64,000 nucleotides of DNA, from positions 62,001 through 126,000 of the forward strand of contig CACVQR010000004.1 in assembly GCA_902756345.1 (NCBI GenBank). The letters are read 5' to 3'. A program made the position numbers and the translations under genes. The stretch's first letter is position 1. Every line of letters starts with the position of its first letter. The notes under the pieces were generated by a model, which did not search any database, was not told the origin of the DNA, and saw only the letters and a program-made list of their open reading frames with translations. Positions 14,002 to 55,006 of this stretch are shown here, piece by piece. Origin of the DNA: Fibrobacter succinogenes (GTDB lineage Bacteria; Fibrobacterota; Fibrobacteria; Fibrobacterales; Fibrobacteraceae).

Positions 14002-14976
14002 ATGGATACTCTTCTTATCGTTGGAATCATCATCGCGGCGATTGCCGTCATCGTTTTGCTCGCCTTTATTGGCAAGTTCTTCAGCCTATGGCTGCAGGCC
14101 TTGTTCTCCAAGGCAAACGTGAGCATTTTCCAGCTTATCGGTATGCGCCTGCGTAAGGTGCCGCCGCAGGTGATTGTTGAAGCCCGAATCCTCAGCTGCA
14201 AGGCAGGCCTCCCGGTCGACACGAACCTGCTCGAAGCCCACTACCTTAGCCGCGGTAACGTGCTCCGCGTAATCCAGGCGCTCATCGCCGCGAACAAGGC
14301 GAACATCAAGCTCGATTTCAAGGAAGCCGCCGCTATCGACCTCGCCGGCCGTAACGTGCTCGAGGCCGTGCAGATGTCCGTGAACCCGAAGGTGATTGAA
14401 ACGCCGAAGGTTTCCGCCGTGGCTCTCGACGGTATTCAGTTGCATGCCGTGACCCGCATTACCGTGCGCGCCAGCATCCAGAAGTTGGTGGGTGGCGCTG
14501 GCGAAGATACCGTGGTCGCCCGCGTGGGCGAAGGCATTGTGTCTTCTATCGGTTCCGCAAAGAGCCACAAGGATGTGCTCGAGAATCCGAACATGATTTC
14601 CAAGAAGGTGCTCGCTTCGGGTCTTGACGCCGGTACCGCATTCGAAATTCTCTCTATCGACATTGCCGACGTGGACGTGGGCCAAAACATTGGCGCCATC
14701 CTCGAAACCGACCGAGCCGAGGCCGACAAGAAGATTGCCCAGGCCAAGGCCGAAGAACGCCGCGCCATGGCGTACGCCGCCGAACAGGAAATGAAGGCCA
14801 AGGTCATGGAAATGAAGGCAAAACTTGTGGAAGCCGAAGCCCAGATCCCGATGGCCATGGCATCAGCCCTTCGCGACGGCAAACTCGGCGTGATGGACTA
14901 TTACAACCTCAAGAATATCGAAGCCGACACGCAAATGCGTAAAGAAATCGGAGCTGGCGGCGAAGCCGCCAAGTAA
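14002..14976 (+). CDS. floA: Flotillin-like protein FloA
   Basis: A 324-residue SPFH protein of the FloA (YqfA/UPF0365) type, usual length about 330. One N-terminal membrane hairpin (residues 3-30) is followed by the SPFH core ([38 protein letters not shown]) and an Ala/Glu/Lys-rich coiled coil (about 235-290) for oligomerisation. FloA organises membrane microdomains and commonly partners an NfeD protease. The ATG follows GGAG; TATATT lies about 30 bases upstream as a likely -10 box. The next gene is separated by heptamer repeats. Confidence 0.93.
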
Positions 14977-15004
14977 TGAGTTTTGAGTAATGAGTTTTGA
15001 GTCT
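14977..15004. repeat. Heptamer array: TGAGTTT/TGAGTAA units
   Basis: Four exactly phased 7-bp units (TGAGTTT, TGAGTAA, TGAGTTT, TGAGTCT) begin directly at the floA stop codon and run up to the S23 gene. An inverted-sense array of the same type lies on the other side of that gene at 15359-15386. Confidence 0.75.
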
Positions 15005-15014
15005 TGGGGTAATC

Positions 15015-15380
15015 GTGCAAGATTTTCAGTCTCTTGAAATTTGGAAAAAAAGTCATTCATTGGTTTTGTCTATATACAAAATTACAGAGAATGACTTCCC
15101 CAAAAACGAACTATTCGCCCTGACTTCGCAAATAAGAAGATTAGCATCATCAATTCCAACAAATATTGCAGAAGGTTGCGGGAGACAAACAAATAAAGAT
15201 TTTGCACATTTTATCCAAATGGCTATAGGCTCATCATCTGAAGTTGAGTATCAACTCATATTAGCAAAAGACCTGAAATATATAAATGAAAAAACTTGGA
15301 AATCACTAAGCAAAAATATCACTGAAATCAGAAAAATGATGCACTCTTTCAAAAACAAACTCACAACTGACAACTCATAA
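15015..15380 (+). CDS. Four-helix-bundle (S23 / 23S rRNA intervening-sequence) protein
   Basis: GTG at 15015 gives the family's usual opening (QDFQSLEIWKKSHSL) with GGGG about 9 bases before it; a TTG 18 bases upstream is less likely. The 121-residue product has LASSIPTNIAEGCGR and FIQMAIGSSSEVEYQL, diagnostic of this small all-helical family (TIGR02436). Relatives include proteins encoded in rRNA intervening sequences and Avd proteins of diversity-generating retroelements; no reverse transcriptase or rRNA is near. The last seven codons and the stop come from the heptamer array, and the gene is flanked by inverted arrays, which suggests a cassette. Confidence 0.88.
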   Translation: MQDFQSLEIWKKSHSLVLSIYKITENDFPKNELFALTSQIRRLASSIPTNIAEGCGRQTNKDFAHFIQMAIGSSSEVEYQLILAKDLKYINEKTWKSLSKNITEIRKMMHSFKNKLTTDNS

Positions 15381-15386
15381 CTGACA
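15359..15386. repeat. Heptamer array: ACTCACA/ACTGACA units
   Basis: Four phased 7-bp units (ACTCACA, ACTGACA, ACTCATA, ACTGACA) cover the end of the S23 frame, including its TAA. They are reverse-complement-like to the TGAGT array on the other side of the gene. Confidence 0.75.
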
Positions 15387-15392
15387 ACTATT

Positions 15393-16202
15393 ATGGAAGG
15401 ACTACTCATTCTCATAGGGATATGGGTTCTCGATATCGTCATTAAGAAGGTCGCGGCCAACCGAAGGGAGCAACAGCAACGCGAACAACAAGTGCCGCCG
15501 CAATACCCAAACGATGACGATGAATTGGACGAATCCGAAGAACAGGCGCAAGGGTACCACCCTCCGCGCTCGTTACAGGATTTGATCCGTCAGTTCGAAA
15601 ATGCCCAGCGTGAGGCGACGCAAGGCAACATCGAGCCCCCCACTCCCCCCGTGCAGCGCAAGCACCCAGAGCAGTTGACGCTCCGCGACATAGCCGAGGT
15701 CGTGATTGAAGTCGATGAAGTCAATCTGGAATTCTTGATGGAAGAATTCGACGTTGACGAAAACACCGCCGCCGAGATGCTGATGGACCTACAGGCCCAC
15801 CGCATCGTAGGCCACGACATGGGCGAAGGCGACTGCGACGTTTTAGTGCACGATCTGGAAGAACTCGACAACCTGCTCAATCACGAAAAAATCGCCGAGC
15901 AAGAAAGAAAAGAATCCCTTAAAAAGGCCGACAATCGTGAAGCAGACGAAGAAAACAGCGCCCGACAGCGCGAATTGGATCGCCAACGTGAATTGAACGC
16001 TCTCGAAGACCGCGCCAGGTCTGCACGCGAATCAGCAGCCGCATTCATGGGAAACGATGTCGCAAGCGGGACTGAACAGACTCCGCGACGCGCGCCCCTT
16101 GTGTCAACCAAGAGCCTCGCCGACGTGCGCAAGGGATTCATCTGGGCTAAAGTCCTGGACGAGCCCCGCTTCAAGCGCCGCTGGAGCGCTCAGTACCGGT
16201 AA
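15393..16202 (+). CDS. Membrane-anchored hypothetical protein with a winged-helix-like segment
   Basis: The 269-residue protein has an N-terminal transmembrane helix (about residues 3-22), an acidic, Gln-rich linker (25-60) and a folded segment (about 95-145; LRDIAEVVIEVDEVNLEFLM, DENTAAEMLMDLQ) that resembles the FtsK-gamma winged-helix pattern. Then comes a long charged helix, likely coiled coil (150-215), and a basic tail. No confident family or function. ATG at 15393 follows the heptamer array without a clear ribosome site. Its stop directly abuts the stop of the next, opposite gene. Confidence 0.7.
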   Translation: MEGLLILIGIWVLDIVIKKVAANRREQQQREQQVPPQYPNDDDELDESEEQAQGYHPPRSLQDLIRQFENAQREATQGNIEPPTPPVQRKHPEQLTLRDIAEVVIEVDEVNLEFLMEEFDVDENTAAEMLMDLQAHRIVGHDMGEGDCDVLVHDLEELDNLLNHEKIAEQERKESLKKADNREADEENSARQRELDRQRELNALEDRARSARESAAAFMGNDVASGTEQTPRRAPLVSTKSLADVRKGFIWAKVLDEPRFKRRWSAQYR

Positions 16203-26208: not shown

Positions 26209-26283
26209 AGTAGGAAGTAGGAAGTAGGAAGTAGGAAGTAAAAAGACAAAAAAACTGCCTACTTCCTACCGTCTACTGTCTAC
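26209..26283. repeat. Heptamer array AGTAGGA x4 with inverted partner
   Basis: Four perfect AGTAGGA units (26209-26236), a short A-rich spacer, then CCTACTTCCTACCGTCTAC and TGTCTAC (26258-26283), which is the inverted sense. The two halves can form a long imperfect hairpin between ndk and the SurA-like gene. Confidence 0.8.
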
Positions 26284-32428: not shown

Positions 32429-32456
32429 AGTAGACAGTAGGAAGTAGGAAGTAGGC
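32429..32456. repeat. Heptamer array AGTAGAC/AGTAGGA
   Basis: Four phased units (AGTAGAC, AGTAGGA, AGTAGGA, AGTAGGC) upstream of purL. No inverted partner is present in this gap. Confidence 0.75.
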
Positions 32457-32471
32457 AGAAATAATCACAAC

Positions 32472-38377: not shown

Positions 38378-38405
38378 AGTAGGAAGTAGAAAGTAGACAG
38401 TAGAC
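38378..38405. repeat. Heptamer array AGTAGGA/AGTAGAC
   Basis: Four phased units (AGTAGGA, AGTAGAA, AGTAGAC, AGTAGAC) between the divergent aminotransferase and acyltransferase genes. Confidence 0.75.
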
Positions 38406-38442
38406 AATGATTAGTAGTTAGGAATTTACTATTTTAGGAAAT

Positions 38443-39410: not shown

Positions 39411-39502
39411 TGAGTTATGAGTTATCTGTTGTGAGTTGTCAGTATACAGTTTGGCGCCGAAGGCGCAATTATTAAAACTCAAAACTCACCACTCAAAACT
39501 CA
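39411..39502. repeat. Heptamer array TGAGTTA with inverted AAACTCA array
   Basis: Phased units TGAGTTA, TGAGTTA, TCTGTTG, TGAGTTG, TCAGTAT, ACAGTTT (39411-39452) are followed by a GGCGCC-GAA-GGCGC mini-hairpin and the inverted units AAACTCA, AAACTCA, CCACTCA, AAACTCA (39475-39502). It sits between the convergent acyltransferase and ketoisomerase genes. Confidence 0.8.
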
Positions 39503-39969: not shown

Positions 39970-40033
39970 ATGTGGAATGTGAAATGTGAAATGTGGGTTT
40001 ATTCATTTCACATTTGTCACTTCACATTACACA
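39970..40033. repeat. Heptamer array ATGTGAA with inverted TTTCACA array
   Basis: ATGTGGA, ATGTGAA, ATGTGAA, ATGTGGG (39970-39997) face TTTCACA, TTTGTCA, CTTCACA, TTACACA (40006-40033). It lies in the ~300-bp divergent gap between the ketoisomerase and rpsD genes, which otherwise holds one palindromic repeat and a possible rpsD promoter (TATATAT near 40148). Confidence 0.8.
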
Positions 40034-40100
40034 TTGTATATGGTGCATTTTCTGTCCTCTAGGGGTGGTTCGGGGTGTTTTTCCGGAAAAACTAGCGAAA

Positions 40101-49494: not shown

Positions 49495-49499
49495 AAAAA

Positions 49500-49527
49500 G
49501 ACGAGAGACGAAAGAAGAAAGACGAGA
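49500..49527. repeat. Heptamer array GACGAGA/GACGAAA
   Basis: Four phased units (GACGAGA, GACGAAA, GAAGAAA, GACGAGA) between the permease and kinase genes. They are the reverse complement of the TCTCGTC elements at 1437 and 22077. Confidence 0.75.
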
Positions 49528-49546
49528 GAAAAATCACGCCTTAAAG

Positions 49547-50568: not shown

Positions 50569-50630
50569 AGTAGGAAGTAGGAAGTAGGAAGTAGGAAGTA
50601 ACTGTCTACTTCCTACCGTCTACTGTCTAC
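50569..50630. repeat. Heptamer array AGTAGGA x4 with inverted TGTCTAC/TTCCTAC array
   Basis: Four perfect AGTAGGA units (50569-50596), then TGTCTAC, TTCCTAC, CGTCTAC, TGTCTAC (50603-50630) followed by five T on the plus strand. It fills the dapB-permease gap and closely matches the array after ndk. Confidence 0.8.
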
Positions 50631-50633
50631 TTT

Positions 50634-51528: not shown

Positions 51529-51614
51529 ATGTGAAGTGTGGGATGTGGGATGTGGGATGTGGAATGAAGAATTACACATTACACATTGCGGCGCAGCCGC
51601 CCACATTACACATT
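51529..51614. repeat. Heptamer array ATGTGGG with inverted TTACACA array
   Basis: ATGTGAA, GTGTGGG, ATGTGGG, ATGTGGG, ATGTGGA, ATGAAGA (51529-51570) face TTACACA, TTACACA, a GCGGC-GCA-GCCGC mini-hairpin, then CCACA and TTACACA. Located between dapB and the transglutaminase gene, touching the latter's stop codon. Confidence 0.8.
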
Positions 51615-54904: not shown

Positions 54905-55000
54905 ATGTGAGGTATGAGGTATGAGGTCGGCGCAATGCGCCTTTGAGATGTAAGGTGTGGGATGTGAAATGATTAGTCATTACACACCACACATTACACA
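54905..55000. repeat. Heptamer array ATGTGAG/GTATGAG with inverted TTACACA array
   Basis: ATGTGAG, GTATGAG, GTATGAG (54905-54925), a GGCGCAATGCGCC mini-hairpin, GTGTGGG and ATGTGAA (54955-54968), then TTACACA, CCACACA, TTACACA (54980-55000). It fills the MoxR-DUF58 gap inside what is otherwise an operon. Confidence 0.78.
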
Positions 55001-55006
55001 TTGTTT

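Follow-up and report, generated by a model that had tools for sequence, protein, structure and literature searches.

What kind of unit is the small gene that stands between floA and its downstream neighbour in this Fibrobacter genome, with short tandem repeats on both sides? The gene belongs to the S23, or four helix bundle, family, which so far has no accepted function outside 23S rRNA introns. The window, meaning the whole 64-kb stretch of DNA analysed here, had received a first-pass annotation that read the gene as a cassette inserted between floA and the next gene, with inverted heptamer arrays as its ends. Comparison with S23 genes of the genus, its phylum, many other phyla, plasmids and viral contigs leads us to conclude that the gene and its two arrays are probably one mobile element, working in the manner of a REPIN/RAYT system.

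An S23 gene between inverted heptamer arrays

The ORF is a member of PF05635/TIGR02436 (23S rRNA IVP, four helix bundle protein), scoring 136 bits against a curated cut-off of 33.8 for PF05635 and 129.8 bits against 24 for TIGR02436. Its start codon is most likely the GTG at 15015, with an in-frame TTG at 14997 as the alternative. The arrangement described by the first-pass annotation is found as described (Table 1): TGAGTTT-type units begin directly 3' of the floA stop codon (TAA, 14974-14976), where the left array reads TGAGTTTTGAGTAATGAGTTTTGAGTCTTG, and units in the opposite orientation cover the final S23 codons and the stop (15378-15380), where the right array reads AACTCACAACTGACAACTCATAACTGACAACT. 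The neighbours of the cassette are FloA and a gene without a Pfam match. Profile searches recognised no catalytic domain in the cassette, and the cassette as a whole folds no better than its shuffles (z -1.3). Each of the three S23 genes of this genome has a heptamer type of its own, with inverted ends, and the other two cassettes (L002 and L003) are bracketed by heptamers of other types than the one at floA.

A lag-7 detector found 16 arrays in the window. Five Markov-1 resamplings of the window gave 0, 1, 0, 0 and 0 arrays, and other periods (4, 5, 6, 8, 10, 11 and 13) gave 0-1 array each. Outside the S23 cassette there are six gene-less inverted pairs or composites, three single arms and one short array at 1436. 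Folded as single-stranded DNA, each of the six gene-less pairs is more stable than any of its 200 shuffles (z -3.8 to -6.8). The arm at 38378 lies in the loop of a terminator-like palindrome, AAAATAGCAAAT-TAAC-ATTTGCTATTTT, which is intact in the related genome G041. Short perfect GC hairpins (GGCGCCGAAGGCGC, GCGGCGCAGCCGC and similar) recur in or beside Fibrobacter heptamer arrays, at 39451-39470, 51588-51600 and 54928-54941 of the window and at loci L388, L390 and L393.

Table 1. The S23 cassette, its neighbours and other array-bearing features of the window.
Feature	Position	Strand	Remarks
floA	14002..14976	+	PF12127 E 1e-151; stop codon abuts cassette
Left heptamer array of S23 cassette	14977..15006		TGAGTTN/TGAGTAA units
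S23 / four helix bundle gene	15015..15380	+	PF05635 E 7e-40, TIGR02436 E 5e-38
Right heptamer array of S23 cassette	15358..15389		Inverted relative to left array; overlaps S23 3' end and stop
Gene 3' of S23 cassette	15393..16202	+	ATG start 3 nt past array
Gene-less two-arm element	26209..26283		AGTAGRM type, ends as S23 cassette L002; hairpin z -6.3
Single arm	32429..32458		AGTAGRM type; lag-7 detector
Single arm	38378..38406		AGTAGRM type; inside palindrome loop; site empty in G041
Gene-less two-arm element	39411..39502		TGAGTTN type, as the S23 cassette of the window; z -3.8
Gene-less two-arm element	39970..40035		ATGTGAA type; z -6.4
Single arm	49499..49529		AGACGAR type; lag-7 detector
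Gene-less two-arm element	50569..50631		AGTAGRM type; z -4.1
Gene-less two-arm element	51537..51609		ATGTGGG type; short GC hairpin inside; z -6.8
Gene-less composite	54908..55002		TGAGGTA and ATGTGRR types; z -5.7

Arrays beside S23 genes in other genomes

S23 loci were collected from the genus Fibrobacter (100 matches in 53 of 80 genomes), the phylum Fibrobacterota (100 of 167 genomes), named genomes (80 loci, found through an S23 peptide pattern and not through arrays), plasmids (34 records) and viral contigs (35 loci). Duplicates with identical core DNA and loci with less than 150-160 bp of flank were left out of the counts of array frequency, loci with less than 60 bp of flank and rows more than 85% identical were left out of the count over 165 loci and of those on matching ends and clades, and the thresholds of the array detector varied from 7 to 9 between analyses.

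A scan of lags 4-14 around S23 genes gave a signal only at 7 (with its multiple 14) and at 8; lags 4-6 and 9-13 were near zero. Of 67 Fibrobacter S23 genes, 90% have a lag-7 array on one side or both, against 1.1% of control windows. Whether S23 genes elsewhere in Fibrobacter also lie beside arrays, as the first-pass annotation had wished to see checked, is thus answered for most of them: 63 of the 67 non-duplicate loci have at least one array (both ends 45, one end 18) and 4 have none. At lag 7 the 47 loci of other Fibrobacterota genera gave both ends 23, one end 9 and none 15, some of the array-less ones proving to have 8-bp arrays, and the 80 named loci gave 38, 23 and 19, where inspection of the 19 negatives revealed 8-bp units in most. 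With lag 7 or 8 the counts are 41 of 47 (controls 1.0-4.2%) and 68 of 79 (controls 0.6-2.9%). The idea that the units are heptamers only is wrong, because loci scored as having none, in Flavobacteria and others, have 8-bp units.

The 165 non-redundant loci, drawn from Fibrobacterota and from named genomes belonging to many phyla, divide into 125 with 7-bp arrays, 25 with 8-bp arrays and 15 with no detected array; arrays occur in 0.3 to about 4% of control windows over all sets. S23 genes with no detected array, which had been named as grounds for giving up the cassette, thus do exist, as 15 of the 165. Judged by this survey, inverted 7- or 8-bp arrays are the rule for the S23 family. Viral contigs had an array on some side in 27 of the 29 loci checked and on both in 20 (the other 6 of 35 were near copies or short partial matches), and plasmid loci had lag-7 arrays in 7 of 8 at a lenient threshold. 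One S23 protein searched against 50,697 phage records found no match. In a Methanophagales archaeon MAG (L174), one side of the S23 gene bears a heptamer array, and a divergent Fibrobacter S23 group (L144-L148 and similar; PF05635 E about 1e-28) has A+T-rich heptamers.

Agreement of the two ends with each other and with the protein

Both arrays are present at 94 non-redundant S23 loci, and there the unit lengths of the two ends were 7/7 in 82, 8/8 in 11 and mixed in 1. The ends shared 0.56 of their 5-mers in inverted orientation and 0.12 in direct orientation; when ends were permuted between loci the value was 0.04 (maximum 0.065 of 200). Counted by locus, the ends were more alike inverted in 80, more alike direct in 11 (among them L191, L205, L220 and L169) and tied in 3. 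These comparisons show S23 genes across the sampled prokaryotes to lie between inverted arrays of one common 7- or 8-bp unit.

The arrays also follow the protein. With rising S23 protein distance, array similarity falls from 0.80 through 0.58, 0.10, 0.06 and 0.05 to 0.04 (Mantel rho 0.17, p 0.002). The nearest neighbour of an octamer locus is another octamer locus in 21 of 25 cases, where 3.8 are expected and 0 of 500 permutations reached as many. In the genus tree of S23, the clades coincide with heptamer types (AAGTAGG, AGTGGTT, ACGAGAG, ACTAGTT and others), in a tree of few columns and many weak forks. Across the aligned loci, both the sequence and the length of the unit are seen to change along with the S23 protein.

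Empty and filled sites

The floA junction was compared in 70 of 77 genomes with a floA match. It is empty in 49, holds an S23 cassette with arrays in 17, a number that agrees with the S23 places from the genus survey, and holds another short ORF in 4, which agrees well with the earlier claim of a cassette inserted between floA and the next gene. The empty junctions are 4-61 nt long and arrays were detected at 0 of 49. Empty sites free of heptamer remnants had been proposed as a refutation of the cassette, and such sites exist in all 49 cases, but the test is ill-posed because a site that was never occupied should look the same. The four other ORFs (loci L238, L242, L251 and L259) are about 90 aa long, start with MIGEFV and are without arrays.

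The S23 genes at floA form several clades and not one (p-AU 7e-65), and those at lolC are not a single clade either (p-AU 2.6e-7). Of the 17 filled sites, 16 have TAG as the floA stop codon, as do 9 of the 49 empty ones (Fisher 3e-8, relatedness ignored). This TAG keeps phase with the first repeat unit, a sign that the cassette brings a TAG stop along or prefers TAG sites.

Two further sites were judged by eye from their junction sequences. The lysS-lolC junction, whose gene names are a reading of translated ends and not from a family search, is empty in 12 of 30 genomes, holds S23 cassettes of at least three types in 14 and an end remnant in 1, with 3 undecidable; in genome G039 an AGTGGTT cassette lies inside AGTAGRM ends. 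The site of the window element at 50569 has no array in 17 of 30 genomes and arrays of several types in 12, with 1 undecidable. Among five syntenic genomes, the element at 26209 is present in this genome (G000) and G044 and absent from G004, G041 and G077. Array length differs between relatives in steps of one unit (G041, site 47827).

The clearest insertion is in related cyanobacterial conjugative plasmids. Those of Nostoc linckia, Fremyella, Nostoc carneum and Aulosira have the empty site, GTTAAAAAGTAATTAACAAATAA, and those of Trichormus variabilis and Scytonema read GTTAAAAAGTAA, then an array, S23, an array ending in TTCTTTGTAA, and TTAACAAATAA. The insertion is precise, lies 3' of a stop codon and has a second GTAA at its far end; the site is empty in 4 records at 97-98% identity. 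This GTAA is the one clear target-site duplication; Fibrobacter insertion sites are too diverged or messy for one, and a fixed TA duplication there was not established, several sites not fitting it. Other plasmid sites carry the same cassette at 78-81% identity, and the similarity ends at the arrays. One plasmid cassette (L442) has decayed to its left array and the start of S23. Altogether, the aligned junctions show cassettes and gene-less copies at sites that are empty in close relatives.

Gene-less copies

The elements at 26209 and 50569 carry both ends of S23 cassette L002, and the gene-less plasmid elements L453-L455 both ends of L435, so that like MITEs they keep both ends of the autonomous element. 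In this genome, 36 places match one 25-base arm within 2 mismatches, and the reversed pattern matches 0. The surroundings of 30 of these places were viewed and are mostly unrelated, a few places overlapping each other, and the dispersed copies keep the same order of variant units.

The number of copies was compared over 80 genomes as counts of unit triplets, with a heptamer type assigned to 75 of 100 S23 genes and 25 left untyped. The median of AGTAGRM triplets is 142 (62-190) for the 10 genomes that have a cognate S23, 2 for the 43 that have S23 of other types and 1 for the 27 that have no S23 (p 1.7e-7). For AGTGRTT the values are 36, 4 and 0 (p 5.5e-5), and for AGACGAR, whose counts overlap widely between the classes, 46, 17 and 4 (p 2.7e-4). 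Exceptions to the AGTAGRM rule are G067, which has 141 triplet matches but an AGTGRTT S23, and G066, G008 and G022. Under phylogenetic pairing, AGTAGRM at a threshold of 60 favours cognate S23 in 4 of 4 pairs in most pairings and at a threshold of 30 in 2-3 of 4, AGTGRTT favours it in about 4-5 of 7, and no pair is opposed, with too few pairs for significance. From these counts, gene-less copies with both cassette ends are seen to be dispersed in the genome in numbers that follow the presence of cognate S23. S23-bearing cassettes number 1-4 per genome and cluster at floA and lolC. Their descent may therefore have been vertical in large part, and the gene-less copies may be the mobile part.

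The gene-less plasmid derivatives are about 180 bp long, with both ends around a structured core. In the Nostocales elements L453:296-475, L454:296-475 and L455:296-476, the core is about 105 bp with two hairpins, one of which has paired changes among the three copies, and 32 plasmid records contain related cores, at 51 places in all. The core is possibly structured RNA cargo; an Rfam search found no family in L453-L455, L435 or L002.

The first-pass annotation had spoken of a new kind of cassette, a small helical protein travelling with heptamer ends. That description holds in substance and needs amending in three points: the length of the unit, 7 or 8 bp, depends on the S23 clade, arrays are numerous without the gene, and the phenomenon spans phyla.

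The S23 protein

The nearest solved relatives are PDB 2gsc and 2rld, with five chains per entry. The first is XCC0516, an S23 protein of X. campestris, a species in which heptamer repeats have been reported. Six polar positions are at least 96% conserved in the S23 alignment (Q34, R37, S41, N45, E48 and E72, in alignment columns), which would be unusual for a mere scaffold and is compatible with an active site or with strict nucleic-acid contact. S23 also matches the profiles of Avd (bAvd E 3e-6, 28 bits against a curated cut-off of 40; DivGenRetAVD E 3e-6, 27.6 against 80), and these scores below the cut-offs point to distant homology. Avd works with a reverse transcriptase in diversity-generating retroelements, whereas the S23 cassette has neither a reverse transcriptase nor a template or variable repeat.

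A probable mobile element and its alternatives

Evidence for mobility is by comparison of sequences: no movement has been observed, and the cassette has no recognised transposase. The S23 protein would bind the hairpin of its own arrays, as single-stranded DNA or RNA, and bring about the copying or transfer of the segment bounded by the arrays. Short gaps next to a stop or start codon would be the preferred targets, and versions with an internal deletion but both ends kept would be moved in trans. We infer that S23 recognises the arrays and that they do not spread without it. Cutting and joining could be done by S23 itself, with its near-invariant Q, R, S, N, E and E, or by recruited host replication or repair, and the two have equal standing. 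Copying through hairpin intermediates, with slippage, would explain how both arms keep the same fast-changing unit.

A further-reaching version, which we put forward tentatively and at somewhat less than even chances, is that S23 proteins are the first known of a new class of mobility enzymes. The oligomeric four-helix bundle, with its near-invariant polar residues, would recognise the hairpin formed by its own 7- or 8-bp repeats, would itself copy these repeats and would set the length and sequence of the unit. Such elements would be the source of the unexplained 7-bp repeats between genes in many bacteria, and rRNA intervening sequences would be the same element.

Alternatively, the arrays could be binding sites of an RNA- or DNA-binding regulator of the S23 type that owe their spread to an effect on neighbouring genes, by regulation or termination, and the flanks of S23 could serve autoregulation. 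The arrays hug stop and start codons, the gene-less pairs form hairpins, Avd and the rRNA IVS proteins indicate nucleic-acid contexts, and translational regulation has been proposed for TAACTGA heptamers (MacGregor 2015, PMC4679880). We consider this unlikely, since orthologous junctions of sister species lack arrays or have unrelated types (at 50569, 17 of 29 none and 12 of 29 several types), the same element occurs at unrelated plasmid sites, and a regulon leaves the two-sided arrays of S23 unexplained.

Just as improbable in our estimate is that S23 is a passenger or partner, and that an enzyme encoded elsewhere (Y1/RAYT, integrase or reverse transcriptase) moves the segments. The want of a recognised catalytic domain in the cassette and the partnership of Avd with reverse transcriptase would fit this, but the sequence and length of the unit track the S23 protein. 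For the Y1 class in particular there is no support: PF01797 is present in 27 of 80 genomes without a link to array number (p 0.63-0.93), and is absent from the array-rich genomes G000, G041, G044, G059 and G018. Finally, that the arrays are ordinary microsatellites grown by slippage, with S23 nearby by chance, is highly improbable and refuted as a whole explanation. Array length does vary by single units between relatives, but arrays lie near 90% of S23 genes against 1% of controls, the ends match in inverted orientation, dispersed copies share the order of variant units, and empty sites are precise, as on the plasmids.

Relation to known systems and significance

The favoured reading, one mobile element of gene and arrays, takes its model from the REP/REPIN and RAYT (TnpA-REP, Y1/HUH) system, in which a few-copy master gene lies between its own repeats and many gene-less two-arm hairpins are dispersed. 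S23 cassettes share the few-copy gene within its own repeats, the dispersed gene-less hairpins matching the ends, and the repeat type that follows the gene. They differ in that the protein is a four-helix bundle without the HUH motif of a Y1 master gene, in that the arms are 7/8-bp tandem arrays where REP arms are single 20-40 bp palindromes, and in that the system is not linked to Y1 genes in Fibrobacter.

In a paper on the Coxiella IVS (PMC4990558), the intervening sequences of 23S rRNA in Leptospira and Coxiella are described as an S23 ORF within terminal inverted repeats, sporadic and suspected of past mobility, and Ralph and McClelland 1993 is cited for the ORF as a mobility component. 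The cassette of the window also has its ORF between terminal inverted repeats; however, the cassettes lie between protein genes (floA, lysS-lolC) and not in a 23S rRNA gene, and they have array ends, abundant gene-less copies and no known RNase III excision. The best reading is that the S23 array system generalises these intervening sequences.

Heptamer arrays themselves have been described before. MacGregor 2015 (PMC4679880) gives TAACTGA heptamers in Beggiatoaceae, cyanobacteria and Bacteroidetes, with no mechanism of spread found, and PMC4692102 gives GGGAATC in Xanthomonas and GGGGAYT in Anabaena/Nostoc, with 186 heptamer repeats in X. campestris, inverted pairs in 70 cases in X. campestris pv. 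campestris, and placement at different genes in a sister species. Intergenic 7-bp arrays, many inverted pairs and different genes in related species are also what is seen here. The terms 'S23' and 'four helix' do not occur in either paper, and a search of the open-access literature (subscription papers and preprints lay outside its scope) turned up no report that connects S23 with heptamer or octamer arrays. S23 with inverted arrays is probably a widespread kind of mobile element, apparently undescribed so far.

S23 goes with inverted 7- or 8-bp arrays in Bacteria, on plasmids, on viral contigs and in one archaeal MAG. This association provides the S23 family with a testable role and suggests a mobile system that lacks any known transposase. 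As every S23 clade has a unit of its own, a protein-DNA specificity would be readable from genomes and directly testable. S23 elements also offer a cause for the over-represented heptamers of Xanthomonas, Nostoc, Beggiatoaceae and others. If S23 is indeed a mobility enzyme, the rRNA intervening sequences would be instances of this element that came to rest in rRNA.
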